Positions 1,701 to 18,352 of a stretch of 64,000 nt of DNA are shown one piece after another. Within the stretch, counting starts at the first letter, position 1. Each line of letters begins with the position of its first letter. The translations under genes were made by a program, and so were the position numbers. The stretch is from NCBI GenBank assembly GCA_016124495.1, contig WGNP01000001.1:1-64000 (forward strand). The letters are read 5' to 3'. The DNA comes from Hyphomonas sp. Lineage in GTDB: Bacteria > Pseudomonadota > Alphaproteobacteria > Caulobacterales > Hyphomonadaceae. Below the pieces are notes generated by a model. The model saw only the letters and a list, made by a program, of their open reading frames with translations, was not told where the DNA came from and searched no databases.

Positions 1701-1797
1701 CGGCGACGTCCGGCCTGGTAGCGGCAGGGCCGCCGGACGCCCCGATTGGACTGAGCCTGCCGGTCGAGGAACCTGACGATCAGAGCCGACCAGGCCC
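1701..1797 (+). repeat. 97-bp interspersed repeat, copy A
   Basis: CGGCGACGTCCGGCC...CCTGCCGGTC...GACGATCAGAGCCGACCAGGCCC; aligns without gaps to copies B, C, E, G. Confidence 0.8.
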
Positions 1798-1833
1798 TTT
1801 TCAGACCGTCCTGAGGCAATCTAAGCTGATCCT

Positions 1834-2370
1834 ATGTGCCTTTACATTGCACTCGTCGTTCGAGGGGGCGATGCCGCCACAATAGACCAAGTGCTCCGAC
1901 GGCACGGGCGGCACGCCCGACCGTTCACCAATGCCACGCTCGGAGACTCACTCCTCTCTGGTGAAGCTGCGTTCCTCACCACTACAGGTCACTGCGATTG
2001 CGGGACTGTCCTGGCTCCCAACGTAGTTGATCGCGAAGGAAAGCGATCCGGACAGGCCGCGAAGCTTGTGAAGCGAGGCTGGTCGAAGGGAAAAATTGAG
2101 CGCTGGCGCAAGGATCGAATGAAAGCCGACGAGCGAGCGGAAGAACGACGGCACGCAAACACGCCCGACAGTCTTCAGCTTTGGTCGCGCATTGTCAGCG
2201 AACTGCTATCTACCGCCGGGGTGCAGCAAGCTGGCTTGCTCGTGCACTTCTACTCGGGCGACTTGGAGCAAGAGACGATTGAACCCCTCCGGAAGACGGT
2301 CCGCGCAAGCGACTTTGAGCGGAGCCTTCAACGCATTGAAGAAGATCAGCTGTTGATGGCTGCGTCGTGA
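1834..2370 (+). CDS. Conserved hypothetical protein (MCLYIALVVRGG... HCDCGTVLAP)
   Basis: 178-aa ORF with clear start and stop, bounded by two repeat copies. Confidence 0.7.
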   Translation: MCLYIALVVRGGDAATIDQVLRRHGRHARPFTNATLGDSLLSGEAAFLTTTGHCDCGTVLAPNVVDREGKRSGQAAKLVKRGWSKGKIERWRKDRMKADERAEERRHANTPDSLQLWSRIVSELLSTAGVQQAGLLVHFYSGDLEQETIEPLRKTVRASDFERSLQRIEEDQLLMAAS

Positions 2371-2377
2371 CCGGAAC

Positions 2378-2474
2378 CGGCGATGTCCTGCTTCGCGCTG
2401 GTGATGTCGCCCAATGACAGGACTGAAGCGAACCTGCCATGCGGCGAAACCGATTATCGGAGCCGACCTGGCCC
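2378..2474 (+). repeat. 97-bp interspersed repeat, copy B
   Basis: CGGCGATGTCCTGC...AATGACAGGACTGAAGCGAACCTGCC...ATCGGAGCCGACCTGGCCC. Confidence 0.8.
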
Positions 2475-2528
2475 CAAGCGGCCGGACCAAGCCTTCAGAA
2501 ATAGGCTTAAAAGACCAGATTTCGCTCC

Positions 2529-4079
2529 TCAGGAAATCCTGCTCTTGCGCCCCGCCCAGTAAGGGTCGCGCAGCGCACGCTTGTAGAGCTTGCCTGTGGG
2601 CAGGCGCGGCAACTGGTCAGTGAAGTCGATCGAACGCGGACATTTTATATGTGCGAGGTTTGCTCGGCAGAAGGCGATCAGCTCCGCTTCCAACGCCTTA
2701 TCCGCCACGACACCGGGCGTGGCCTGTACCACGGCCTTAACTTCTTCGCCGAGATCCTCGTTCGGAACGCCGAACACGGCTGCGTCCGTCACCTTCGGAT
2801 GCGTGATCAGCAGGTTCTCGCATTCCTGCGGGTAAATGTTCATCCCGCCGGATATTATCATGAATGTCTTGCGGTCGGTGAGATGGAGGAAGCCATCATC
2901 GTCGAGATAACCGACGTCGCCTACCGTGCTCATCGATCCGTCCGGTGAGCGGCTCTCCTTTGTCTTGGCCTCGTCCTCGAAATACTCAAACGGCGAGGCC
3001 GTTTTGAACCAGATCGTGCCGGGCTCGCCTTTGGGCGACGGGTTCATCTCTTCGTCGAGGATATGAATGTCACCGAGGACGACGCGTCCGACGGTGCCCT
3101 TATGCGCGAGCCATTCGGGCGTGTTACAGGCCGTGAAACCAAGGCCTTCGGTCGCGCCGTAGTATTCGTGGATGATCGGTCCCCACCAGTCAATCATCTG
3201 CTCCTTGACCTGGACCGGGCAGGGGGCGGCGGCGTGGATGGCGACTTCGAGCGAGCTGAGATCGTAGCGCGAGCGCACCTCCTCTGGCAGTTTCAGCAGG
3301 CGCGAAAACATTGTCGGCACGAGCTGGCTGTGTGTCACCTTGTGGCGCTCGATCAGGGCGAGGTAGGCCTGCGCGTCGAAGTGCTCCATGATGACGGCCG
3401 TTCCGCCCGCCCGGATCGTCATTGCGACCGCCATCTGTGGCGCAGAATGATAAAGAGGTGCCGGCGAGAGGTACATCATCCTGTCGCGGTAAAGCCAAAG
3501 GGATTGCAGGAACTTCGCCACAGGCAGGTCTTCATCCGGCCCCGCATCCGGTAGCGGGCGAACGATTCCCTTGGGCCGTCCCGTGGTCCCGGAAGAGTAG
3601 AGCATCGCCGTACCAAGCCACTGATCGGTGATCGGGGTGCCAGGCAGATCCGCGACGGCGTCGTCCAGTGTGCGGACATGTTTTCCGTCGCCCGGACCAT
3701 CAACAACGAGGCAAAGCGTGACACCTGGTGCCTGCGCCATCGCCGCCTGCGCGACTTCAAGCCTGGCCTGAGACGTGATCAGGATTTTTGAACGGCTGTT
3801 GTTGAGGATATAGGCCAGTTCGTCGACGCCAAGGTAGGAATTGATGGGTGTGTAATAAAGCCCGGCCCGCAGGCCTGCCCCGCAGCACTCGACGTAGCGC
3901 GCGTTGTTTTCCATGAAGATGGCGTAATGACCGAGACGGTTGAGCCCCTGTTGGCGAAACAGGTGTGCAAGCCTGTTGGTGCGTTTCTCAAGCTCGCTGT
4001 AAGTGATGGTTTGACCCGACCCCGCCATGATCACGGCGATCCGTCCGGGATCGGTTGTCGCGACTGCGCCCGGCAGCAT
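2529..4079 (-). CDS. AMP-dependent synthetase/ligase (acyl-CoA synthetase)
   Basis: AMP-binding motif YSSGTTGRPKGIVRP, GATEGLG, GDVGYLDDDGFLHLTDRKTFMIISGGMNIYPQECE, C-terminal LPTGKLYKRALRD. Confidence 0.95.
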   Translation of the reverse strand: MLPGAVATTDPGRIAVIMAGSGQTITYSELEKRTNRLAHLFRQQGLNRLGHYAIFMENNARYVECCGAGLRAGLYYTPINSYLGVDELAYILNNSRSKILITSQARLEVAQAAMAQAPGVTLCLVVDGPGDGKHVRTLDDAVADLPGTPITDQWLGTAMLYSSGTTGRPKGIVRPLPDAGPDEDLPVAKFLQSLWLYRDRMMYLSPAPLYHSAPQMAVAMTIRAGGTAVIMEHFDAQAYLALIERHKVTHSQLVPTMFSRLLKLPEEVRSRYDLSSLEVAIHAAAPCPVQVKEQMIDWWGPIIHEYYGATEGLGFTACNTPEWLAHKGTVGRVVLGDIHILDEEMNPSPKGEPGTIWFKTASPFEYFEDEAKTKESRSPDGSMSTVGDVGYLDDDGFLHLTDRKTFMIISGGMNIYPQECENLLITHPKVTDAAVFGVPNEDLGEEVKAVVQATPGVVADKALEAELIAFCRANLAHIKCPRSIDFTDQLPRLPTGKLYKRALRDPYWAGRKSRIS

Positions 4080-4274
4080 CTCTTCCCCCTTTTCTCAGCG
4101 AGTGTGCCTCTCCCTGCTTATCGATACGCGCTCCGTTGGTGTCAAGCGAACCGGGAGAGGCGCAAACGCAGCGGCTGCGAAACAACGTCAGGCGCAGACC
4201 ACGCAATTGCTTGCGCAAACAGGTCGGCTTCGACCGTTGACGGACGTTTGCCAGCGAACGCCTATGGCCGGGAC

Positions 4275-4371
4275 CGGCGAAGTCCGGCCCGGTGCAGGTG
4301 AGACGGTCGAATGACACGATCGGGCTAAGACTGCCGGTGCCCCATCCGGACGAGGGGAGCCGACCTGGGTC
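4275..4371 (+). repeat. 97-bp interspersed repeat, copy C
   Basis: CGGCGAAGTCCGGCCCGGTG...GTCGAATGACACGATCGGG...GGGAGCCGACCTGGGTC. Confidence 0.8.
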
Positions 4372-4560
4372 ACGCTGTCATTCGCGGTGCACCTGGTTCT
4401 GAAGTTCGGGGGCAGTTCATCTTCTCTGCCGCGTCTGACGACTGAAACCCTGAAAAGCCGAACCGTGCGTGCGCGGGGTGAACCATCAACAGCGCCCTAG
4501 CGCGGCCAATCCGCTTCGAATATCGTCAACACCGGGGCTGCGAGCGGGCGGATCAGCATC

Positions 4561-5130
4561 ATGTCGGTCTTTGAATTCTACACCGTGCTGCTCTCGTTCG
4601 TCGTGTCGCTGGGTTTGGCAAGCTTGCTGGGATCGATCGTCCGGCTCTTGCAGCAAGCAGATCGCGTCAAGTTTTCATGGCCTCATGCGCTTTGGACCGT
4701 TACGATCTTCAACCTCCAGATTGTCTTCTGGTTGAAGTCGTGGACCTATCACGACACATTTGACCTGAGCGTGTCGACTGCCCTTCCGCCGCTTGTGCTG
4801 GCAATCATCGCATTCTTTGCCTGCGGTCTCGTATCGCCGCACATTCCCGAAGATGGGACCGTGGATCTCCAGGAATTTCACGCGCGTCAGGGCCGGAAAT
4901 ACGAGATAGCTGCAGCGCTGTTCATGTTTGCGGCAATTATACAGGCGGCGTTTATGGACGGCTTTTTCACGACGGCTGCCAGGGTGACTGAAAGCGTGTT
5001 TCAGTTTGGCCTGGCAATGCTTGCCATAGCTGCTGCACTGACCCCCCGGAGTCGCTGGATGCAGGTCGGCGTGCCAGCAATATGGGTGCTTAGCGTATTG
5101 TTTTTTCTCCCACCACTGTTGGAAGCCTGA
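4561..5130 (+). CDS. Hypothetical integral membrane protein
   Basis: 189 aa with several hydrophobic segments (FYTVLLSFVVSLGLASLLGSIV, LPPLVLAIIAFFACGLV). Confidence 0.75.
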   Translation: MSVFEFYTVLLSFVVSLGLASLLGSIVRLLQQADRVKFSWPHALWTVTIFNLQIVFWLKSWTYHDTFDLSVSTALPPLVLAIIAFFACGLVSPHIPEDGTVDLQEFHARQGRKYEIAAALFMFAAIIQAAFMDGFFTTAARVTESVFQFGLAMLAIAAALTPRSRWMQVGVPAIWVLSVLFFLPPLLEA

Positions 5131-5665
5131 CCCAGCAGCGCTCTCCTGCTCGGCTTCTTCGGCAACAAGCCGTTTTGCATCAGGCAGAACCTTCAGCTTC
5201 CGGTGATGAAGTGTTGCAGAGCGGATCAGCAGGAAACGGCGTAGAAGGTTGGTTCCGGCCGGGGAACCGGACAGATTACCAATGGCGGACTTCGGCGATT
5301 TCCTGCCGAATGAACCGGGTGGGGCAGGGGCGGCAGATAAGCACTGCAATCGCGGCCGCCACCTGGTAACGCAAGCGCCCGCACACTTCAAAGAAATGGA
5401 TTTGCGATACGCAAGCCCGTGAACATCTGTCCGTGCTGCATGTCGTCGCTGGCAACTACATCGTGCCCGATCCCCGTCCAGTTAATTGAAAAGGGGACTT
5501 CTGGTGAACGTTATGCAGCGCGCATCGCGCGCGCCATATCTTGTTTCGATGCCAATCCGTAGGGATTGAGCCGAAAGAACCTCCTGCAATCCGGCAAAGA
5601 AGCTGGCGCCTGTTTCGCATACCGTGTTAGCTTCTGGCGGTACGCGCACATTGCGAGAGGCTGCA

Positions 5666-6802
5666 ATGCCCGACATGGGTTTCAGGGAATGGATAGCCGC
5701 TGGCCAGGCCATCGCGGACGGCCAGCTGATGCGCTATGCGGACAAGGCGCACTACACCGCCCGCTTCGAGCGCGAACTGGGCGAGCATGTCGGCGCAAAG
5801 CATGTCCTGACGGTCAATTCCGGAACAAGCGCGCTGATCGCCGCGCTGGCCGCAGCCGGTATCGGTCCCGGTGATGAAGTCCTCGTGCCGGCCTATACCT
5901 GGATGGCAACCGCAGCGGCGCCTGTGCAGGTCGGCGCCGTGCCGGTCCTCGTCGACATCAACGAAACGCTCACCATCGATCCGGAAGACATCCGGCGCAA
6001 GATCACCCCATACACCCGTGCGATCATCCCCGTACACATGGTCAACGCCCCGTGCGACATGGATGCGATCATGGCGATTGCGCGCGAGCACAATCTTATC
6101 GTCATCGAAGACGCCTGCCAGTCCGGCGGCGTGCGCTACAAGGACAGGTATTGCGGCGCGATTGGCGACCTCGGCGCCTACAGTTTCAACAAGATGAAGA
6201 ACATGAATATCGGCGAAGGCGGCGCCGTGCTGACCAACGACGACGCCTTCTTCGTGCGCGCCCGCAGCTATCATGACCTCGGCGCGATGGTGCGAGGCCA
6301 TGAAGACAACTTCAACGAAAAGGAATTCGTCGGCTTCAACATGAAGGTCACGGAAATCCAGGGTGCGATGCTCCGTGTACAGCTCAAGAAAGTCCAGCCA
6401 CTCCTGAAGCGCATGCAGAAGCGGCGCGCGATGCTGGCGGAAATCCTCTCGCAAAGTCCCCACTTCAAGGTGACACCGCACAACGACCCCGCCAATGCCG
6501 TCAGCCTGAGCATCCTGGCGCCCACCCGCGAGGCCGCCATTGAACTGACGCAGCGCCGCGGCGTGTGGAACCGCCTGCGCGACAGCTCGAAACATGTTTA
6601 CACGAACTGGGAACCGATCCTCGCGAAGCGGACATTCCATCCGAGAATGAACGCCTGGGCCTGGGCAAAGCGGCCGATCGACTACTCGCTGGACATGTGC
6701 GCCCGCACGCTCGATATCCTCGACCGGACCTGCGTGATCAACCTGGGACTCCGCTATCCTGATCCCGTGATGGCCTGGATTGCAAAGAAAATCGCGTTGT
6801 AG
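5666..6802 (+). CDS. DegT/DnrJ/EryC1/StrS family PLP-dependent aminotransferase
   Basis: HVGAKHVLTVNSGTSALIAALAAAGIGPGDEVLVPAYTW, VIEDACQSGG, YSFNKMKNMNIGEGGAVLTND. ATG at 5666 (MPDMGFREW) is more likely than the ORF-track start at 5624. Confidence 0.92.
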   Translation: MPDMGFREWIAAGQAIADGQLMRYADKAHYTARFERELGEHVGAKHVLTVNSGTSALIAALAAAGIGPGDEVLVPAYTWMATAAAPVQVGAVPVLVDINETLTIDPEDIRRKITPYTRAIIPVHMVNAPCDMDAIMAIAREHNLIVIEDACQSGGVRYKDRYCGAIGDLGAYSFNKMKNMNIGEGGAVLTNDDAFFVRARSYHDLGAMVRGHEDNFNEKEFVGFNMKVTEIQGAMLRVQLKKVQPLLKRMQKRRAMLAEILSQSPHFKVTPHNDPANAVSLSILAPTREAAIELTQRRGVWNRLRDSSKHVYTNWEPILAKRTFHPRMNAWAWAKRPIDYSLDMCARTLDILDRTCVINLGLRYPDPVMAWIAKKIAL

Positions 6803-8432
6803 AACCGGCCTGTTCGCTTGTCCTGCGAGACGCCGCACTGACCGCATGGTCTGCAGCCCGCGCCGTCAGCGCCATGATCGTCAGCGTCGGATTATGTACA
6901 TCCACCCGCGGGAAGCAGGCGCCGTCTGTCACATATAGACCCTTGACGTCCCAACACTCATTGTGCGGATCAACCACGGATGTGGCCGGATCGCTTCCCA
7001 TTCGGGCCGTGCCGCATTCATGGATGCCTGTTCCCGGCGCCGCCAGCTTTCGCGTCTGGCTAAGGTGGTCGAGGCCAAGATCTTCGCTGATCTGCTGAAT
7101 GATTTCGCTTTGGCGCCTGCCGATGGCGCGCTGGGCGTCGCTATAGCGGAAACGAATGCGCGGCACCGGCACGCCATAAGCATCGGTCCGCGTCAGCTCG
7201 AGCAAAACGCGGTTCTCCGCATCCGGCAGCACATCGGCGAACGAAACGATATCCACGCGCGCATTGCTGGCGGATCTGGGATGGATGTGAACCTGGATCC
7301 CGAAGGGCCCACCCTCCTCATCGAGTGGCGGCACATAAATGCAGCGCCCCGGCTCAACAGATTGTCCCGCCAGATCCGGCAGACTGTTCGAATAGCCCAC
7401 TGCGCTCATCACGGCATGATCCATCAGGTATCGGCCAAGCGCCGGAGAATGCATCCCGACCGCCTCTGCTTTCGTACCTCCCGCCGACAGCATCAGGATA
7501 CGCGTGGACTCGATGGCCGAAGCACACAGGAAGACAATCGGCGCAGAGGCCGTTTCAATCTGACCCGTGCCGCAGTCGAACCATTCGACACCTTCGGCTG
7601 CTCCGGACGCACTGTACAATACCTGCCGGACCACAGCGCCCGCACGCCCCCGCAGGCGCCCCGTGGCGGCAGCAAGGTCCAGCCAGGCCGCTGGCGGCGC
7701 GTAATGCCCCAGGATCGGCTTTGCCCCCGGCCAGCGGTTTTTTAGTGTGCTGATGATCTTCTTCTCGGCGCTCGAGAGCGGCAAGGCTTCCGACAGCTCC
7801 CTGCCCGGAATGCTGTTCACACTATCCTCACCGCCCCGCAGGCCGAGCGTCCGCTCGATTATGCGGTAGGAGGGATCAAGCTCCATGCTGTCAAAGGGCC
7901 AGACCGGCAGGCCGGCCTTACTGGCCTGGCCGTCCATGCCGCCGAGGCGATAGTACTGGCGTCCGTGTCCGGGAACCAGCATGCGTCCACCAGGCTGACG
8001 CGACCGGTACCAGTGAAAAGGTTCCTCAGAATCTGAGATGTAAGGGCAGTCAACGTCATCGACGAGGCACTGCGGTGACAGGGCCCATGCGAAGCACCGC
8101 GACTGGACCGGCTGCCGGATCCGCCCGGCCAGCCGCAGCGCTTTTTCGCACACGCGCAGGACTGTTGGCGAAAGCCGGTTGTCGATACCGCTGTTGAGCA
8201 AGGCATTCATTGCAGCCGAGACGGCAGCGGTTAGGGGCCGGTGTACGTTTTCCGGAAGCTGGCCAGCTTCGAGAACAAGCACTTTCAGGCCGAGGGAGCA
8301 CAGCCGCCAGGCCGCAACGCCTCCCGCAGCGCCCGACCCTACGACGATCGCGTCATAAGTCGCGTTGCGCCCCGGGTCGCCGCGTAGCCAGAAGCTCGCG
8401 GAATCAAGACTGCCTTTAAGTTTACGTTCCAT
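6738..8432 (-). CDS. GMC family oxidoreductase
   Basis: FAD motif DAIVVGSGAAGGVAAWRLCSLGLKVLVLEAG; C-terminal HECGTARMGSDPATSVVDPHNECWDVKGLYVTDGACFP. 3' end overlaps the convergent DegT gene. Confidence 0.92.
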   Translation of the reverse strand: MERKLKGSLDSASFWLRGDPGRNATYDAIVVGSGAAGGVAAWRLCSLGLKVLVLEAGQLPENVHRPLTAAVSAAMNALLNSGIDNRLSPTVLRVCEKALRLAGRIRQPVQSRCFAWALSPQCLVDDVDCPYISDSEEPFHWYRSRQPGGRMLVPGHGRQYYRLGGMDGQASKAGLPVWPFDSMELDPSYRIIERTLGLRGGEDSVNSIPGRELSEALPLSSAEKKIISTLKNRWPGAKPILGHYAPPAAWLDLAAATGRLRGRAGAVVRQVLYSASGAAEGVEWFDCGTGQIETASAPIVFLCASAIESTRILMLSAGGTKAEAVGMHSPALGRYLMDHAVMSAVGYSNSLPDLAGQSVEPGRCIYVPPLDEEGGPFGIQVHIHPRSASNARVDIVSFADVLPDAENRVLLELTRTDAYGVPVPRIRFRYSDAQRAIGRRQSEIIQQISEDLGLDHLSQTRKLAAPGTGIHECGTARMGSDPATSVVDPHNECWDVKGLYVTDGACFPRVDVHNPTLTIMALTARAADHAVSAASRRTSEQAGSTTRFSLQSRPSRDQDSGVPG

Positions 8433-8529
8433 ACAAATTCAAAGGCGGCTCCGTTTGTCTGAACAGATCCAGGTCGCTCTATAAGTGGATCTCTGACCTT
8501 CGGATTATGCTGCAAACGGGATTGTCTGC

Positions 8530-9090
8530 AGCGCGTTGAACTAAGCCTGATCCGGCGTCTGCCGGTCAAGCGATGAGTCTGGTCTCTTCGCATTGCAAAA
8601 CGAAAGATACCGGGCCGGTCCCGGCGCGGGCTTCCGGAACGCCGATAGGCCCGGGGGTAGATTTCTGCGTATTTAATCGACCGCCACCGACGCTCGGCAA
8701 AGACATTGTCCTTCCAGGCGCCGCGGCCGTCCATGGTGATCTCGACGTTTCGAGCTTTCAGGAGCTGCGCGAACGCGGTCGATGTGAACGGGCTGCCCTG
8801 ATCGGAATTGAAGATCTCAGGGCAACCGTATCGGCCGATCGCTTCTTTGGCGGCCTGGATACAAAAGCCCGCCTCCGCTCGTCATTGTTGCTCGGACCAA
8901 GGGCGCGACAGGCCCGCTGAAGGGCAGGAGCCAGGCAAGCACCCGGCGACTGAACCAGTCGACGACGGCGACAAGGTATACAAATCCTTGTGCCATGGGC
9001 ACGTTCGTGATGTCGATCGCCCGGACCTGGTTGGGCCGCGTCACCGCCAGATTGTGCGGGAGGCAGGGATAGATACTGAGGCCGGGATAC
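8530..9090 (-). pseudogene. Degenerate IS3-family transposase (OrfB) remnant
   Basis: Minus strand reads YPGLSIYPCLPHNLAVTRPNQVRAIDITNVPMAQGFVYLVAVVDWFSRRVLAW ... PEIFNSDQGSPFTSTAFAQLLKARNVEITMDGRGAWKDNVFAERRWRSIKYAEIY, broken across frames and lacking the N-terminus. Confidence 0.88.
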
Positions 9091-9111
9091 CCCTCAACCG
9101 CCCCCTCCAAG

Positions 9112-9136
9112 CCCTCCTCCCTTTCCGGGAGAAGGG
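9112..9136. repeat. Short REP-like hairpin (CCCTCCTCCCTTTCCGGGAGAAGGG)
   Basis: Stem with one mismatch; resembles short palindromic intergenic repeats common in alphaproteobacteria (recall, not searched). Confidence 0.4.
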
Positions 9137-9170
9137 GTGGAATTTGAAACCTCAGCGCTCTTCGCTCAGG

Positions 9171-9803
9171 CTAAAAGCGCAAAGTCGCACCAAGCAAAAG
9201 ATCAATCGTCTGATACTGGGCCTGCAACGTAGCAGCTGCAGGTCCGGGGAGGTTGGGGTCGTCGATGAAGAAGGCGCGAACCTCGCCAAATGCGGTCCAG
9301 CGTTGGCCAAGCGCCAGATCCGCACCGAGGATGCCCTGGCCAGCCAACAAGCCCGTGTCCGAGTATTGCCCCGCCGCCGGGCCGCCTGTCAGGTCGAAAT
9401 CAACCTCCCTTACAAAGCCGATCCCCGCACCGGCATAGGGTTGCACCGCACCGAGCGCGCCGAAGCTATACAGGCCGTTCACCATGATAGCGGTTGAGGC
9501 GTAGTCACCCTCACGGGCAATTGTTGGCGGCAGGCTGTCCACGTCGCTCGACCGATACGTGTACTCGATTTCACTGCGCCATGGGCCAGCGTAGTCGTAG
9601 CCAAAGGTGCCGCCGACCAATAAGCCGCTGCTGAACCTGGCGTTCGCATTTGCACCGCCAGTGCTGATGTCGCTGTCATTGAGCGTCGACAGCCCTCCAT
9701 AGGCGCGTGCGTAAAAGCCGGGTTCCGCCGCCGGGGTTTCTGCTTGAGCGACACCGGCGTAAGCCGCCAGTGCCGCCATGATAACCAGTCCGTGTTTCAT
9801 CAT
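9171..9803 (-). CDS. Outer-membrane beta-barrel protein (porin/OmpA-like beta-barrel domain)
   Basis: Signal peptide MMKHGLVIMAALAAYAGVAQA, then alternating beta-strand pattern ending in TIDLLLGATLRF with terminal Phe. Confidence 0.85.
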   Translation of the reverse strand: MMKHGLVIMAALAAYAGVAQAETPAAEPGFYARAYGGLSTLNDSDISTGGANANARFSSGLLVGGTFGYDYAGPWRSEIEYTYRSSDVDSLPPTIAREGDYASTAIMVNGLYSFGALGAVQPYAGAGIGFVREVDFDLTGGPAAGQYSDTGLLAGQGILGADLALGQRWTAFGEVRAFFIDDPNLPGPAAATLQAQYQTIDLLLGATLRF

Positions 9804-9961
9804 GCCTTCATCTCCTTGTTCTGAGGCATGTTGGATACGTTTCATGTGCGGTCTTCGGCAGGCCTGCCGGAGGCCTATTGCACCAAATGAAGGGGTTTCT
9901 GCACGAATAGCGCTGCGGCGGGGATGCAGATCCACCAATGGCGGGGTTTATGCAGGAATGG

Positions 9962-10849
9962 TCAGGCTTTCGGAAACTTGGCGGCGACCTCCGCCTGGCG
10001 GCTGCGGGCGACCGGAACGGTTGCGCCCGACAGCAGCACGCAGAACATACGACCTTCCTGCCGCCGGACTCCCGCGACATGCGCCGAGGCGACCCAGTGC
10101 GAGCGGTGCACCTGAAGGCCTTTGTCCGACGCTGCAAGTTCCGCCACGGCCTGTCCGAACGAATAAAGAATCAGCGCCTCCCCGCGGGTCGTCTTCACGC
10201 GAAGGTAATGGAGCTCGGCGCTGAGCATAACGAGGTCGCGGCCCAATGCGGGCGCCAGCTGCGCCAGAAATGGCAAGTCCATGTCGGTGTCGGCCGCCCC
10301 ATGCGGGGCGCGTTCCGAGCCTTCGCCTCGGGAAGGCTCACTGCCGGTCGGGACCTCCAAATCCTGCGCCGCCGCTGGATCTTGTTCGACCTGCAACAAT
10401 TGGGGCAGACGCAGCGTCCGCGCCGCGTTCAACCCCAGCCATACCAACACAATAGGTGGGGCTAGCGCAAAGACTTCATCGATCACCAGTGCGTTCAGCG
10501 ACTGGCGCATTTCGCCAGGGCTATCCTCCAATCCAAACGCCCAATCGAGCCCGACGGCCATCGGCGCGAAGAGCGCCGCGCCGACACCGCCCGCAAGGGC
10601 AATCTGCTTCCAGGGGGCGAGACGATGTGTGAGCCGCAGACGCGATACCCCGAGCTGCACGAGTTGCAACAGCGCGAGCGGCAAGCCAACATGCGCCATC
10701 CAGTAGAAAAACCGCGCCACCGGCTCCAACATTCGCGACGACTCGGGGTTGAGGAAAGTGAACAGCATCGTTAGCCCGGCGCCTGAAACGGCAAGAAACC
10801 AGGGCCAGGACATCGCGGCTTGCTGCAAGCGTATGTGACGGAATTGCAT
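9962..10849 (-). CDS. LytTR DNA-binding domain protein with N-terminal membrane segments
   Basis: Hydrophobic N-terminus; C-terminal LSAELHYLRVKTTRGEALILYSFGQAVAEL...GLQVHRSHWVASAHVAGVRRQEGRMFCVLLSGATVPVARSRQAEV is LytTR-like. Start chosen at MQFRHIRLQQ (10849). Confidence 0.88.
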   Translation of the reverse strand: MQFRHIRLQQAAMSWPWFLAVSGAGLTMLFTFLNPESSRMLEPVARFFYWMAHVGLPLALLQLVQLGVSRLRLTHRLAPWKQIALAGGVGAALFAPMAVGLDWAFGLEDSPGEMRQSLNALVIDEVFALAPPIVLVWLGLNAARTLRLPQLLQVEQDPAAAQDLEVPTGSEPSRGEGSERAPHGAADTDMDLPFLAQLAPALGRDLVMLSAELHYLRVKTTRGEALILYSFGQAVAELAASDKGLQVHRSHWVASAHVAGVRRQEGRMFCVLLSGATVPVARSRQAEVAAKFPKA

Positions 10850-11037
10850 GGAGTCTCTTTGGCAGAGCGGGCGCAAATGGCAACTTATTGGCAGGCTGTC
10901 GAGACGGTGGCTGTGGCCGGCTGTATCTGGGGCCATATCGGGCAAGCTGGCTACGGCACGGAAGGTGGGCCTCGCGGCGGCCTGCGATGATGCCGGCACA
11001 CGAGCGACCAAACAGAAATCTGACGAGTGACCGGGTT

Positions 11038-11134
11038 CGGCGAAGTCCGGCCCGGTGGCGGCGAGGCTGCCGGACGGCAACTAATGAGCGGCTCTGCCGT
11101 AGGTAAGAATGAGGCGGGCTCGGCGAGCAGGGGC
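11038..11134 (+). repeat. 97-bp interspersed repeat, copy D (right half diverged)
   Basis: CGGCGAAGTCCGGCCCGGTGGCGG...GCTGCCGGACGG; CTGCC block at the same offset as the other copies; 3' third weak. Confidence 0.6.
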
Positions 11135-11370
11135 CCCCATTTCGTCTTCGGCGCGGCGGGAGGCAGCCAGTCCGTTACTGAATCCGCATCCAGTTCCGGC
11201 GCATCGGCTTCGTCCCTGTCCTCGTCAATGTCGGTGCGTCCCGCAACGATCACGCGCCGGCGCAACAGGGCAGGAGTGTCGCGTTACAGATCACAAGATC
11301 GGCGCCAACGCGCCGCCTGAAGGCTTGGGGGTTCAGCGACGCAGCGGTTCACTGAATACCGGCCACCGGA

Positions 11371-12075
11371 TCAGTCGGGCGCCGCTGTCGCAATCGCCTC
11401 GAGCAGGCGAACCCGTGTGATCCTCTGGTTGTCCCAGTCGAAGGGCTGCGGCGATTCCCGGCCGGAAAGCGTCGCATCGCTCTGCTGGGCCAGCCACGCC
11501 GTGAGCGCCTCGCGCGTCTTGAACACGGCCTCCGTGAACAGTTGGCCGTCGTATACGGAACCATAGACATAACCGTCGTCGCTAATCCCCAATCCCATCC
11601 CGCAATAGTCGCGATGCGAATACGCCACCGTCACGCCCCGGTCGAGCGCATCAACGACCTTGCCGGCAAGCGCCGCGCCATAGGGTGTCGGGTCGTTCAC
11701 GAACGCATTGTGGGTTACTGACTCGCCGAGAAGCTTGAGCGTAATCACCTCGATCGTGTCATGGCAGCCGGGCCGCACATAATCGTCAAGTGACTGCGGA
11801 CTCTGCTGAGCCAGCCAGTCAGCGAAAGCGTTCTTGTCCGGGGTGGAAAAAACCTCCCGTCGGGCGTCCTTGAGAATTTCGTAAACGAGGCGATCGCCCT
11901 TCTTCAGCATCCAGTGCGCGCAGTAGCCCGACAAAATGCGGCCATCGCGGTCAAGCAGGTCGGCGACGCCGTCAGCGATCTCCTTGCCAAATGGAAGGGA
12001 AGAAAGGGTTGGCGCCATGGGAGCGATGGGTACCTCGGCAAGACGCGGCTTCCCGCCGCAAGCGGCATTATCCAT
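11371..12075 (-). CDS. Hypothetical protein
   Basis: 234-aa ORF with protein-like composition; no recognised family. Confidence 0.65.
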   Translation of the reverse strand: MDNAACGGKPRLAEVPIAPMAPTLSSLPFGKEIADGVADLLDRDGRILSGYCAHWMLKKGDRLVYEILKDARREVFSTPDKNAFADWLAQQSPQSLDDYVRPGCHDTIEVITLKLLGESVTHNAFVNDPTPYGAALAGKVVDALDRGVTVAYSHRDYCGMGLGISDDGYVYGSVYDGQLFTEAVFKTREALTAWLAQQSDATLSGRESPQPFDWDNQRITRVRLLEAIATAAPD

Positions 12076-12127
12076 TGATGCGTGTCATCGTCCAGCGAGC
12101 CCGCGGACATCAGGCAACGTCGCCTGC

Positions 12128-12224
12128 CGGCGATCTCCCGCCTGGTGCTGGTCAGCCGGCCGAATGACAGGATTGAGGTGACCCTGCCAATCCCCGAACC
12201 AGAAGAAGGGAGCCGACCTGGCCC
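12128..12224 (+). repeat. 97-bp interspersed repeat, copy E
   Basis: CGGCGATCTCCCGCCTGGTG...GCCGGCCGAATGACAGGATTGAGGTGACCCTGCC...GGGAGCCGACCTGGCCC. Confidence 0.8.
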
Positions 12225-12378
12225 TAAACTTCCAATCTCCCCCGTCTGATCCATACGCGCGCAGCCGATTATGTGCCCGGGCGCGTCGGTGATGCGAATC
12301 AATTAACGAGCGGCTTGAACGTGTGAGCAGTGGTGACGGGGTTGCGTGCTGACCTTTGCGCGTGCCGCCTAGCAAGAC

Positions 12379-13659
12379 CTAGAGCGGGCGGAGTTGGACC
12401 GGAACGTTTGTGATGCCGCGGATGAAATTGTTGGAGCTGCGCTCCACCTCTCCAACGACCTCCACTGTGTGGAACCGCTTCAGAATCTCCTCCCAAAGGA
12501 TGCGGAGCTGCATCTCGGCCAGGCGATTGCCCATGCACCGGTGGACACCGAATCCGAAGGCGACATGGTGGCGGGCATTCTCCCGGTCGATGAGGAAGCG
12601 CTCGGCATCGGGAAACACGGTCTCGTCCCGGTTGGCGGACAGATACCACATGACCACCTTGTCGCCCTTACGGATAGTCTTGCCGCCAAGTTCGACATCC
12701 TGAACGGCCGTGCGCCGCATGTGAATCACCGGCGTCTGCCAACGGATGGTTTCGGACACCATGTTAGGGATGAGCGCAGGATTTTCCCGCAGCTTCCGGT
12801 ATTCCTCGGGGAACTGGTTAAGGGCGACCACGCCGCCGCTGATGCTGTTTCGGGTAGTGTCATTGCCGCCGACAATCAGGAGGAGGATCGTTCCGATCAT
12901 CGTGATCGGATCGCGGCTGAGCTCCTTCGTCGCCTCGCTATGGGCCAGCATGGAGAGTAGATCGGATTTCGGGGCTTCTCCGGCGCGCGTGTTCCAGAGG
13001 TTGAAGAAGACCATGGCGCATTCCATCAGCGCATTACGGCGCGCCTCCATGTCGGTGGCCTGGCCGGTGACACCCGGAACAGCGGTCGTGATGTCCGACC
13101 AGTAGATGAGCCGTCGGCGGTCCTCGTAGGGAAAGTCGAACAGTGTCGCCAGCATGCGGGCCGTGAGCTCGACCGCGACGAGATCAACCCAGTTGAAGGT
13201 TTTGCCGACAGGAAGATTGTCGAGAATGTCTGCCGCGCGCTCGCGGATCAGCGTCTCGAAATTCTTCAGGTTCTGGGGCGCGACAGCGGGTGAGACAGCT
13301 TTTCGCTGTTCCCTGTGGGCGGGCTCGTCCAGGGTGATGAAGGACTTGCTTCTCATGAGGGCCGCCTCGCCGGTTTCGGGCGGATCGACGATAGCGATGC
13401 CTTTGACTTCAGAGGAAAAGGCGGTGTGGTTCGTATCGACCGCCATGACGGTGTCGTGGGTCGTCACGGACCAAAAGGGGCCATTGGCGCTGTCTTCCAG
13501 ATAGTGCACGGGCGATTCACGCCGAAGACGGGCGAACCAGGGTTGCCAGGTATCGTCCTTGAAGCGATGAGGCACGGAGACATCGATCCGGTCGAGCAGC
13601 GCGAGGCCGGCTACGGACGCGGGATCCAGTGGTTCCGGGCTGTCTGCGGTGGCCGTCAT
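12379..13659 (-). CDS. Cytochrome P450, CYP153-like (alkane/terminal hydroxylase family)
   Basis: Heme-binding FGFGVHRCMGNRLAEMQ, I-helix LLLIVGGNDTTRNSISGG, FITLDEPAHREQRKAVSPAVAPQNL, ETIRWQTPVIHMRRTA. Confidence 0.93.
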   Translation of the reverse strand: MTATADSPEPLDPASVAGLALLDRIDVSVPHRFKDDTWQPWFARLRRESPVHYLEDSANGPFWSVTTHDTVMAVDTNHTAFSSEVKGIAIVDPPETGEAALMRSKSFITLDEPAHREQRKAVSPAVAPQNLKNFETLIRERAADILDNLPVGKTFNWVDLVAVELTARMLATLFDFPYEDRRRLIYWSDITTAVPGVTGQATDMEARRNALMECAMVFFNLWNTRAGEAPKSDLLSMLAHSEATKELSRDPITMIGTILLLIVGGNDTTRNSISGGVVALNQFPEEYRKLRENPALIPNMVSETIRWQTPVIHMRRTAVQDVELGGKTIRKGDKVVMWYLSANRDETVFPDAERFLIDRENARHHVAFGFGVHRCMGNRLAEMQLRILWEEILKRFHTVEVVGEVERSSNNFIRGITNVPVQLRPL

Positions 13660-13826
13660 GAAGCATGCTTCCTTTGTAATGTGAGGAGGATTCTACGGAC
13701 GCAGCATGAAGGCACAAGGCGAATTCTAGCCCTTCTGCGACATCGACACCCGTCCGGCACTTAAGCTTCTCACCAGAATCAGAAATCGAAAACAGACCTA
13801 GCTAGAGCGCTTCGGAAGCAGAAGCG

Positions 13827-14927
13827 TCATGGGGTTTGCTCGATTTTCACGAGTGCATCGCCGAGGCCCGACACATAAACCGAGCCGCCGCCAGGCGTGA
13901 GGATCACACCTGTCATCAATCCAGGTAGCTGCCCCGAAACATCCGGTGTCAGCAGGTCGATCGTCGGCACGCCCGCGTCGCGGCGCCGGCGGAACTCGGC
14001 TGCGGCAGCGTCGCCGGCAGGATTCACGGGATGAAACACTACCCGCGTTTCGCCAGTATCGGGATTGATAGTGATCAGTTCGCTCGAAATCGGCGAGGCG
14101 ACCCAGAGCAACCCTGTCTCATCCTGTTCCACATTGTCTGGTGAGGTCACTTCCGCCACAATCCGCCGGTCGCCCAGCTTACCGGCGGCGATGTCGACCT
14201 GGTAGCCAAGCACATGGCCGCCGAGGGTTTCCGACAGGAAGATTTCGCCGCGCCCCTCGTCCACAGCGAAACCATTGGCGAAGTTCAGGCCTGTCAGCTT
14301 CAAAGCAGGAGCGCCCAGCGGCTCACCTTCGGCGGCAGGCGGAATGCGATATAGTGAGCCATCACCCATCTTTACATTGACCGCAGCGAACATCCGTTCT
14401 TCAGCATTGGGCGCGGTGTTTTCCGTGGACTGAGTAAACCAGATCGCGCCCGTAGAATCCCGATGGGCGTAGTTCATGCCGAAGGGGTGGTCGTAGATCA
14501 TCACAGCTGTCTCGGCCGCAATATCTACGCGGTAGAGCGCGCCGGTGAAGATGTCGGCGACCAACAAATGGGTTTTGCCAGGCTCGAATGATACACCGTT
14601 CGGCGCCCCTGCGTTATCCGGCGGCGCATGATTGTAGCCGGCCGCCGTCAGGTTCCCGAATGGCCGCGATATGCCATCGGGCGACAGGGCGACAAGTCCG
14701 TGGACCTGGTCGGCCACTACCAGCGTCCCATCGGCCAGCACGACACCGGACTCCGGCCGGTTCAACGAACGGTCAGCCGGAAAAACCATGCCGTCTTCGA
14801 GCGTCAGGGTGCGCGGCGCTTCGACTGGCGGAGCGGCTTGCGGTTTCACCGCTGGCTCCGTAACTGGCACCGGCGCACATGCGACCATGCCTGCCGCCAG
14901 AGCGGCCAGTGCGATCAATCTTTGCAT
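13827..14927 (-). CDS. SMP-30/gluconolactonase-like beta-propeller protein with lipoprotein-like leader
   Basis: Leader MQRLIALAALAAGMVACAP; FANGFAVDEGRGEIFLSETLGGHVLGYQVD and SPDNVEQDETGLLWVASP motifs. Confidence 0.8.
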   Translation of the reverse strand: MQRLIALAALAAGMVACAPVPVTEPAVKPQAAPPVEAPRTLTLEDGMVFPADRSLNRPESGVVLADGTLVVADQVHGLVALSPDGISRPFGNLTAAGYNHAPPDNAGAPNGVSFEPGKTHLLVADIFTGALYRVDIAAETAVMIYDHPFGMNYAHRDSTGAIWFTQSTENTAPNAEERMFAAVNVKMGDGSLYRIPPAAEGEPLGAPALKLTGLNFANGFAVDEGRGEIFLSETLGGHVLGYQVDIAAGKLGDRRIVAEVTSPDNVEQDETGLLWVASPISSELITINPDTGETRVVFHPVNPAGDAAAAEFRRRRDAGVPTIDLLTPDVSGQLPGLMTGVILTPGGGSVYVSGLGDALVKIEQTP

Positions 14928-15131
14928 CCTGTTTCCGCCGTCAGCGGCGCGGCTTCGACGTCCATGCCAAGGATTAACATCATATCGGCGATCGAAACAG
15001 TCTCACGCTTAATCCAGATTCGGGGCACTATCTGGTCCCCGTTACTAACCTGGAACCGTCGCCGCCTCATATCTCTATGGCTGCAATCGGTGCTAGTCTA
15101 CATCTGGACTTGTCTTGCGGGACCGGCTTGA

Positions 15132-16571
15132 TTGCATAAGCTGCCTTCGGTTCGAGGGACTGCCGCGCAGAGTTCGACAATGTTGGGGGCAGTGATCAGG
15201 CAAGATGATAAAGTAGGCGGCCCGACAGCGCCCGGATCGTGGCGCCTCGCGGCCTTTGCTTTGCCATGCGTTCCGGTAGCCGCGATGCTGATGCCGGTGG
15301 TGGTTTATCTGCCAAACTATTACGCCACTGATCTGGGAGTAAGCCTTGGCGCTATCGGCCTTGCCTTCGGAATCGTCCGGCTCTTCGATTTGTGGCTGGA
15401 CCCGACACTTGGTTTTCTCATCGACAAGACGAACACTCGATTTGGGCGTTTCAAGCCTTGGCTCGTGGCAGGTTTGCCGATCGCTGTGCTCTCGGTTTGG
15501 ATGCTCTTCATGGCGCGGCCGGGCATCGACGGCCGCTATATCCTGTTTTGGCTGATCCTTGGTTTTCTGGGTCAGTCGATGGCCACTATGGCTCATGTCG
15601 CATGGGCCGCAAGGATTGCTCCGGAATACAGCCAGCGAACGCGGGTGTTCGGTTGGTGGCAAGCGTTCACAGTGGTGGGCATGCTGATTGTGCTTGCGAT
15701 GCCTCCGTTGATGAAGAGTGCCTTCGGGCTCGACTATGCATCGGGCGTTCGCGCCATGGGTTGGTTCGTCGTGTTGAGTTTACCGGCGGCTATCCTTGTC
15801 GCGCTCTTCGCAGTGCGAGAGCCTTTGACGCTGCCAAACTCGAATGTATCCAATTGGCGTCACTACCTGGTGCTCTTGCGTCGGCCATCCGTTCTGAGGC
15901 TGCTCGCCGCAGACATCTTAATCGGGACGGGGCCCGTCATTGCAGGAACGCTCTTCTTCTTCTTTTTCGACGCCATCCGAGGCTGGGACCGCTCGGAAGC
16001 GGGTCTGTTGTTGTTGCTCTATTTCATCGGGGCCTTGCTTGGTGCGCCGCTGTGGTCGCGGCTGGGTCGGACTTTCGGTAAGCACCGCGCGCTGAGCATT
16101 GCCGCCGTTGCCTATTCGATAGCGCAAGCGTCGGTGTTGATCGCACCACCTGGTCTCGTCTGGGCGATCGTCACCATGATGCTTGCGGGCGTTCCCTACA
16201 GTGCCGGTCCAATTCTCCTGCGGGCGATGATGGCCGACCTCGGAGATGAAGAACGCTTACACAGTGGCGTTGACCGTAGTGGACTTCTATTTGGAATGCT
16301 AAGCGGCGCAGTGAAGATTGGTTCCGCCTTTGCTGTTTTCGCGTCGGTCACCTCCATCGAGGCCATGGGTTTCCAGGCTGATCTGGGCGCAGGCAATGAT
16401 CCGCTAGCCTTGGCTGCACTATCGAGCGTCTTTGCACTGGCGCCCGCCTTGTTGGGACTTGCCGGAGCGGCCCTGATTTCTGGTCATACAATGGATAAAG
16501 CCGCGCATGATGCTATCCGCCAGCAGTTGGACGCGCGTGATGCCTTACAGAAAGAGCGAGCGACTTCGTAA
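15132..16571 (+). CDS. MFS transporter, glycoside-pentoside-hexuronide/melibiose-carrier-like
   Basis: GAIGLAFGIVRLFDLWLDPTLGFLIDKTNTRFGRFKPWLVAGLPIAVLSVWMLF; about 12 hydrophobic segments. Start could be 15180. Confidence 0.92.
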   Translation: MHKLPSVRGTAAQSSTMLGAVIRQDDKVGGPTAPGSWRLAAFALPCVPVAAMLMPVVVYLPNYYATDLGVSLGAIGLAFGIVRLFDLWLDPTLGFLIDKTNTRFGRFKPWLVAGLPIAVLSVWMLFMARPGIDGRYILFWLILGFLGQSMATMAHVAWAARIAPEYSQRTRVFGWWQAFTVVGMLIVLAMPPLMKSAFGLDYASGVRAMGWFVVLSLPAAILVALFAVREPLTLPNSNVSNWRHYLVLLRRPSVLRLLAADILIGTGPVIAGTLFFFFFDAIRGWDRSEAGLLLLLYFIGALLGAPLWSRLGRTFGKHRALSIAAVAYSIAQASVLIAPPGLVWAIVTMMLAGVPYSAGPILLRAMMADLGDEERLHSGVDRSGLLFGMLSGAVKIGSAFAVFASVTSIEAMGFQADLGAGNDPLALAALSSVFALAPALLGLAGAALISGHTMDKAAHDAIRQQLDARDALQKERATS

Positions 16572-16648
16572 TCGCCATACACCAGTTGGGTCATTGCCAG
16601 CTCCTTGTTCCAAACGCGCTTACTCTGAAGGTGAAGTATGTCGCCTTT

Positions 16649-16744
16649 CGGCGAAGTCCGGCCGGGTTTCGGTGCGGCCGCGCGGCGGCACGATTGATTG
16701 ACCCTGCCGGTCGACCAAAACGACGATGAGAGCCCAGATGGCCT
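16649..16744 (+). repeat. 97-bp interspersed repeat, copy F (1-nt shorter)
   Basis: CGGCGAAGTCCGGCCGGGTTTCGG...CACGATTGATTGACCCTGCCGGTC...GACGATGAGAGCC. Confidence 0.75.
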
Positions 16745-16867
16745 ATGGCGCTCCTTCCTGCGCAACCCGGTCAACGATGCTACTCGCAGAAAACGAGACT
16801 TGTCCGGCAATTGGTGCGGGGTAAGCATTTGAACAGCGTGCAACCGGCATGACCGAAAACAACGCCG

Positions 16868-17332
16868 TCACAGAAGCGTATCGTCCGGGATAAAGCGGTC
16901 GTCGCGCAAAGGCGGCCGATGGTCCTGCGCCGCTCCGATCACCAGCCCTCCAATGAAAAACAGCGGCCATACTGCCAGCGCGAGATTGGGAAGAAACCAG
17001 GCGGGGTCGAACTCTGCGAGCAAGGTCCAGTACGCAATTGCCATAAAGCCCGCCACAAATGTCAGACAGAGCGACAGGATAGCGAGCGGACGCCAGATCG
17101 GGTTGCCGCGCCTTGCAAAGTGAACTGCGGAGATGCCGGTGACAGAAAAGAGCACATCAATCGGAAAGAAAGACCAGTTCCATGCAATGACGCGCGGGTC
17201 ATCATAGTCTTTGTACATCATGCTGGGCGGCAGGGAGATCAGACCGGCGAGATCCAGAACCATTGCTGTCCAATAGCTGAGAAACGCAATGTCCGTGAAA
17301 AGAAGGAATCCTGCGAGGCGCCTGGTCATCAT
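16868..17332 (-). CDS. DUF5360/YvaD-like integral membrane protein
   Basis: FTDIAFLSYWTAMVLDLAGLISLPPSMMYKDYDDPRVIAWNWSFFPIDVLFSVTG; four hydrophobic segments. Confidence 0.7.
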   Translation of the reverse strand: MMTRRLAGFLLFTDIAFLSYWTAMVLDLAGLISLPPSMMYKDYDDPRVIAWNWSFFPIDVLFSVTGISAVHFARRGNPIWRPLAILSLCLTFVAGFMAIAYWTLLAEFDPAWFLPNLALAVWPLFFIGGLVIGAAQDHRPPLRDDRFIPDDTLL

Positions 17333-17398
17333 CCTGTCGATCCGGTTCTCATGCTTCTTGACTTTGTTTCTCAGCAGCGGCGGGCATCGCAGCGGGTT

Positions 17399-18121
17399 TC
17401 AATCTAGCAGGCTTTCGATATGTGCGGTCACCATTGCAACCGCCCGGGTCCTTTCCCTGGGAAAGCGTGCCGGCGCGGCAAGTGTGACCTTTATCCCGAG
17501 GCCGTCGATGAACACCATGAGATGATCTGCCAATTCACTTGATTGCCTGGGCTCTTTTTTCAGGGGCTCAAGGAGTCCCTGAAGGAGCCTGCGCCACTCG
17601 GCATAGCGACGTCTGTTTTCGTCCAGAAGCCGCGCATCGGCAGCAGCGGCGCCCCAGAAGGCCAGCCAGACCTTCCACTCCGTCAGACGATTGTAGTCGA
17701 GGGGCAAAGCCTCGAAGACCACGGCTGTCAGCCGGGCTTTCGCAGACAGGTCCCGTTCTGCAGCCTCCAGCATACGCGCACCAGCCGCCATATGGGCGGC
17801 GCGGAGGGCTTCTATGAGAAGAGCATCGCGATCGCTGAAGTAATGGGTCAAAGCGCCGGTTGTCACACCGGCAACAGAGGCAACGCGGCGCAGCGTGGCC
17901 GCGCCTAGCCCTTCTTGCGCTATGACGTTCCAGCTGGCGGCCACAAGGGCCGCCCTCTTTTCTTCGGGATCGACTATCTTTGGCAGAGCGCACGCTTTCC
18001 TGGCTTCAATTCCGGGAGTGCGTATTTTATAACAGTTGTTATGTGAAAAGCCAAGTCGGTCCGGCAGCCCGCGGGGCCCTTCTCCAGGCCTTCGATATCC
18101 GGGGCAGGCTGCGCTGCACAC
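17399..18121 (-). CDS. TetR family transcriptional regulator (start codon uncertain)
   Basis: KRAALVAASWNVIAQEGLGAATLRRVASVAGVTTGALTHYFSDRDALLIEALRAA. N-terminal ~45 residues of the ORF are doubtful; true start probably downstream of 18029. Confidence 0.85.
   Translation of the reverse strand: MCSAACPGYRRPGEGPRGLPDRLGFSHNNCYKIRTPGIEARKACALPKIVDPEEKRAALVAASWNVIAQEGLGAATLRRVASVAGVTTGALTHYFSDRDALLIEALRAAHMAAGARMLEAAERDLSAKARLTAVVFEALPLDYNRLTEWKVWLAFWGAAAADARLLDENRRRYAEWRRLLQGLLEPLKKEPRQSSELADHLMVFIDGLGIKVTLAAPARFPRERTRAVAMVTAHIESLLD
18029..18042. promoter_or_regulatory. Candidate operator ATAACA-GT-TGTTAT
   Basis: Perfect 6-bp inverted repeat with 2-nt spacer just upstream of the conserved part of the TetR gene. 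Confidence 0.45.
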
Positions 18122-18133
18122 GGGGTCCGACTT

Positions 18134-18230
18134 CGGCGGTCTCCGGCCTCGTGTCTGCAGGGCCGGCTGATGGCAGGATCGAGGTGCCCCTGCCAGAGGC
18201 CGAATTCGATCATCGGAGCCGGTCTGGCAC
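18134..18230 (+). repeat. 97-bp interspersed repeat, copy G
   Basis: CGGCGGTCTCCGGCCTCGTG...GCCGGCTGATGGCAGGATCGAGGTGCCCCTGCC...ATCGGAGCCGGTCTGGCAC. Confidence 0.8.
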
Positions 18231-18352
18231 TAAAGAGCCGGTGGTCGCGCAATGCCAATAAGGCCAGCAGATCGAAGGGCAGGTCAGGTCCTCGCAAGGC
18301 GGCGCTCACTGCATGAATCGCGGAAAGCAGACATAGCGGCGGTCCTGGCGAC

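Follow-up and report, generated by a model that had tools for sequence, protein, structure and literature searches.

The seven degenerate repeats dispersed between the genes of the Hyphomonas sp. DNA analysed here (the window, 64,000 nucleotides, positions 1–64,000 of contig WGNP01000001.1, assembly GCA_016124495.1) most likely each represent a junction site in an array of gene cassettes that can be exchanged much as in an integron, a reading to which a probability of roughly 0.7 is assigned. A recombination site was among the options raised by an earlier sequence-only reading of the same DNA, and it is supported by the enrichment of breakpoints at both edges of the repeat and by the exchange of whole cassettes.

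All seven copies that had been reported, every one on the plus strand, are found at their positions in the window. Sites A (1689–1811), B (2366–2488), C (4263–4385), E (12116–12238) and G (18122–18244) each comprise a 97-bp core, at 1701–1797, 2378–2474, 4275–4371, 12128–12224 and 18134–18230, respectively, together with outer boxes. The core of site F (16637–16758) is indeed one nucleotide shorter, with 96 bp at 16649–16744, and site D (11027–11101) retains, as had been suspected, only its left part, matching over roughly the first 65–70 bp, its 3′ part being lost or replaced. A hidden Markov model built from the seven copies scores each of them in the window at E = 1e-14 to 2e-22, with the same copies serving as its training set, and a profile of 67 copies, the majority taken from other parts of the window's genome (G000) and from other genomes, likewise recovers all seven at E = 4e-29 to 8e-9. 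The latter matches A at 1690–1808 (E = 1.1e-24), B at 2368–2485 (E = 2.2e-27), C at 4264–4371 (E = 1.9e-19), D over model positions 2–76 (E = 8e-9), E at 12117–12236 (E = 4e-29, the best copy within the window), F at 16638–16748 (E = 5.5e-19) and G at 18125–18242 (E = 6.5e-22). The next-best match of this profile in the window reaches only E = 0.02, no significant match lies between 28 and 64 kb, where none had been seen before, and six control sequences (five Markov resamples and the reversed window) yield a single match at E = 0.058.

The boundaries first drawn around the repeat hold for the 97-bp core and are too narrow for the whole element, since conservation runs on for about 12 bp upstream and about 14 bp downstream. 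Mirrored outer boxes, AATGNCNGN upstream and NCNGNCATT downstream, lengthen the element to about 123 bp and contain the near-invariant positions G-9 (0.97), C-7 (0.97), G+7 (0.95) and C+9 (0.92). No covariation was detected in the outer boxes or between pairs across the element, pairing in the consensus hairpin does not exceed that of shuffles, and the folding energy of ten sites is ordinary (z of -0.5 to -1.5); the element accordingly has the look of double-stranded DNA bound by a protein, and not of an RNA that folds or of an attC hairpin. Structured RNA, another of the initial suggestions, thus finds no support, and a scan of the window at the Rfam gathering threshold returned only a tRNA. 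Together with that scan, the absence of a description of the element or of such a system from the literature searched, with most subscription journals lying outside that search, is consistent with the family not having been recognised at first sight. A coding function was rejected, as some reading frames are open in most copies and yet the conservation has no three-base periodicity (1.04, 1.10 and 1.08 bits). A longer element with upstream and downstream modules and outer GTGACC/GGTCAC ends was also considered, and was judged minor with only about 8 of 99 sites having it. Small families of flank modules, of about 82 bp upstream and 60–120 bp downstream, are seen in the loci L042, L043, L046 and L047, each being common to about 8 of the 99 sites.

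The family is genome-wide, with 13 copies found by BLAST in G000 and 29 by a 123-position profile. According to the same profile it is present in 20 of 42 Hyphomonas genomes and absent from the other 22, the highest copy number being 60 in G014; the relatives that carry it are Hyphomonas metagenome assemblies. In an order-level scan of a 200-genome sample, most matches outside Hyphomonas fall in one other family, and many of these divergent relatives are of full length (model positions 2–121), clustered and co-oriented, with conserved ends. The length of the core is constant, at exactly 97 bp in 165 and 96 bp in 30 of the 219 distinct sites collected. A similarity search of plasmids and an exact-pattern scan of viral contigs gave no match.

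The sites form arrays. Neighbours less than 4 kb apart are co-oriented in 108 of 111 cases, with only 3 exceptions and a median site-to-site gap of 1028 bp, and 51 of these 108 intervals contain exactly one gene. None of 213 sites lies by more than 50% within a called gene, the orientation of genes relative to the site is random (66 same and 81 opposite), and toxin–antitoxin-like pairs, identified by eye and not by a family search, recur among the cassette genes. Within the window, the A–B cassette (1798–2377, plus strand) is filled by an ORF of 178 aa without a Pfam match (1834–2370), which ends 7 bp before core B, and the B–C cassette (2475–4274, minus strand) carries an AMP-binding enzyme (2529–4079; PF00501 and PF13193). 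The D–E cassette (11135–12127, minus strand) contains an ORF of 234 aa, also without a Pfam match (11371–12075), and the F–G cassette (16745–18133, minus strand) a DUF5360 protein (16868–17332) and a TetR regulator (17399–18121). The long C–D interval (4372–11037) holds an ORF at 4561–5130 and, on the minus strand, a GMC oxidoreductase (6738–8432), an outer-membrane barrel (9171–9938) and a LytTR protein (9962–11080), and in the E–F interval (12225–16648) a cytochrome P450 (12379–13659) and an SGL protein (13827–14927), both on the minus strand, are accompanied by an MFS transporter on the plus strand (15132–16571).

Homology between array loci ends preferentially at the edges of the core. Across the complete set of alignments between such loci that span 250 bp or more, 40 ends fall at the 5′ edge (-15 to 15) and 40 at the 3′ edge (80 to 112), in both cases against 2.6 expected, a 15-fold excess, although the counts reuse the same events and are not independent, the distinct sites numbering 35 and 26. 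A further 32 ends, against about 5.7 expected, lie inside the core, all positions being blurred by BLAST extension through the approximately 70%-identical cores. Whole cassettes also recur in new neighbourhoods, the site-to-site length being the same and the outer flanks unrelated on either side: a 924-bp cassette is present at two places in G014 with different neighbours, a 964–965-bp cassette is found in G014, G011 and G000, and a 525-bp cassette occurs twice in G001, the outer flanks of the last two being likewise unrelated. Pairs of sites with both flanks in common have similar cores (82–96%), and in most pairs with one common flank the cores are unrelated. The core goes with the upstream gene in a few cassettes (L163/L171/L179 and L106/L150), with the downstream gene in L050/L174 and with neither in many pairs, a pattern most simply read as crossing over at each of the two core ends. 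Sites D and F of the window behave like the other exchanged sites, the flank being kept and the core differing: the 600 bp upstream of D are 84% identical to those of the G014 site L045_10304, with unrelated cores (62%), and the upstream flank of F is shared with L153_5027 of G046 (89% over 586 bp, core 62%) and L174_553 of G024 (80% over 563 bp, core 53%). Site-specific recombination and circular intermediates probably lie behind the breakpoints; no excised circle was seen. The chief limitation is that draft metagenome assemblies supply all the evidence of exchange; merging of cores by the assembler is unlikely, since the cores of unrelated sites are only about 55–77% identical over the 97 bp.

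The same divergence weighs on the alternative that survives best, namely that dispersed repeats undergo homologous recombination in the absence of a dedicated enzyme and exist for another reason. Some cores are mosaic, as in L042_109 and L046_5726, which have about 55 bp in the middle in common, and the excess of breakpoints inside the core would also fit; however, sequences of such identity over 97 bp are a poor RecA substrate, the breakpoints peak at both edges, and the mirrored boxes and the constant length would be left unexplained, which makes this explanation unlikely. A non-autonomous transposon or MITE inserted between genes, also put forward from the sequence alone, would agree with the mirrored ends, the intergenic position and the many copies, yet it is more improbable still. 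None of 202 flank pairs was found joined without the element, which speaks against the element itself having been inserted, the local co-orientation is strong (108:3), and the flanking genes, not the element alone, are exchanged at the edges.

In three genomes from a related genus, each a single contig (G448, G396 and G324), nearly all sites point away from dnaA on both arms, with the reservations that one G448 site is ambiguous, that dnaA serves only as a stand-in for the origin and that sites within an array are not independent. Such polarity could be expected of a replication-polar or chromosome-organising protein-binding site, and it has a comparable counterpart in sedentary integrons, 25 of 30 of which have their attC bottom strands on the leading-strand template (PMC5371416), the polarity being the same if the plus strand of the sites is equated with the top strand of attC. 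A purely organisational role is nevertheless very improbable, for the sites lie in accessory arrays, are missing from 22 of the 42 congeners and mark gene exchange.

The likeness to sedentary chromosomal integrons and CALINs goes further, as co-oriented sites about 1 kb apart that separate exchangeable cassettes, toxin–antitoxin-like cargo, a tyrosine recombinase oriented oppositely to the sites and arrays pointing away from the origin are common to both. Complete integrons are extremely rare in Alphaproteobacteria, with 6 in one survey (PMC9024848). In the 42 Hyphomonas genomes no protein exceeds the cut-off of the integron integrase model TIGR02249, and the proteins that come nearest to it are tyrosine recombinases which, where their loci were inspected, have an IS91 transposase as partner. 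The R boxes RYYYAAC and GTTRRRY occur in 1 and 0 of 210 sites, respectively, against 4.8 and 3.4 expected, neither a significant hairpin nor covariation is seen, and the core is conserved in sequence and length, unlike attC sites, in which the sequence varies and the structure is kept (PMC9024848). The random orientation of the genes is a further difference, and the cores often do not travel with a gene; an integron site travels with its upstream gene, whereas here most pairs that share the upstream side have unrelated cores. The system works like a sedentary integron, sharing its co-oriented cassette arrangement, and yet it is not classed as an integron because the integrase, the attC boxes and the attC structure are not found, and that the sites are attC sites of an ordinary integron cluster without its integrase is the least probable of the explanations weighed. 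The VCRs of Vibrio, the superintegron repeats, similarly constitute a fixed-length repeat family of comparable size within one genus, but they are attC sites that possess R boxes and fold as single strands, and neither feature was found in the Hyphomonas element.

The leading candidate for the enzyme is encoded within several of the arrays. A tyrosine recombinase of about 220 aa, in which the catalytic R-K-HxxR-H-Y residues are conserved, is intact inside arrays of G014, G022, G024 and G010 and fragmentary inside arrays of G052, G000, G022, G011 and G010. It runs antisense to the sites at every one of the nine loci inspected, three of which share cassette ancestry and are not fully independent, and occurs, at least as fragments, in 10 of the 20 genomes with sites versus 3 of the 22 without. 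It is missing or fragmentary in the site-rich G046, G001 and G000 and present in the site-free G053 and G012, and the window's array contains no match to it. In another family, a 78%-identical homologue adjoins a site remnant, again in antisense orientation, and relatives in other alphaproteobacterial families have no homologous sites nearby. On the 5′ side of the gene, conservation persists for tens of bp before the genomes diverge. The gene is repeatedly divergent from a ParD-like antitoxin gene, recognised by eye and located upstream in L246, L247, L248, L171 and L179, and given this pairing the recombinase may be a passenger. The link to the arrays is correlative, and the protein is a candidate only, with slightly less than an even chance of being the array enzyme. 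It has the catalytic residues in common with XerC, XerD and other tyrosine recombinases (PF00589), whereas its matches to the Xer models are partial, restricted to the catalytic part and far below the cut-off; no sequence match to it was found in the PDB.

In the distant alphaproteobacterium G163, a homologue with 67% identity is flanked by co-oriented repeats of about 107 bp (L237:355–461 and 11667–11773), to which it is antisense; these repeats are few and contain indels. Another tyrosine recombinase, near an array of the window's genome (C17), was rejected as the array enzyme, as it is partnered by an IS91 transposase and its element interrupts a site. At this locus (L106:8530–11019), the IS91-family transposase and the recombinase lie beside a site broken after ACCTG near the 3′ core edge, and an element of the same type is found near a site in L261, from another family.

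In the proposed integron-like array, the site would consist of the 97-bp core between the mirrored, recombinase-type boxes, and the cassettes would be the roughly 0.5–2.5 kb segments that separate one co-oriented site from the next. At either core edge, site-specific recombination, with crossover predicted between about TTT and CGGCGA at the 5′ edge and between CCTG and GCCC or GGCCC and TAA at the 3′ edge, would excise or insert a cassette with or without the neighbouring core, and genes and cores would therefore be shuffled independently. The window's array would then be a site cluster with no enzyme of its own close by. That these features add up to an integron-like system independent of IntI and attC, with double-stranded sites, crossover at each end of the 97-bp core, a single-domain tyrosine recombinase and genes and junctions shuffled independently, is a tentative proposal, given somewhat less than even odds. 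Integrons are the textbook example of how bacteria stockpile and shuffle genes. If the proposal is true, a similar architecture built on another site, and probably on another recombinase, would show that gene collecting evolved more than once, and it would explain a class of accessory islands in the order that lies outside the design of attC/IntI search tools.
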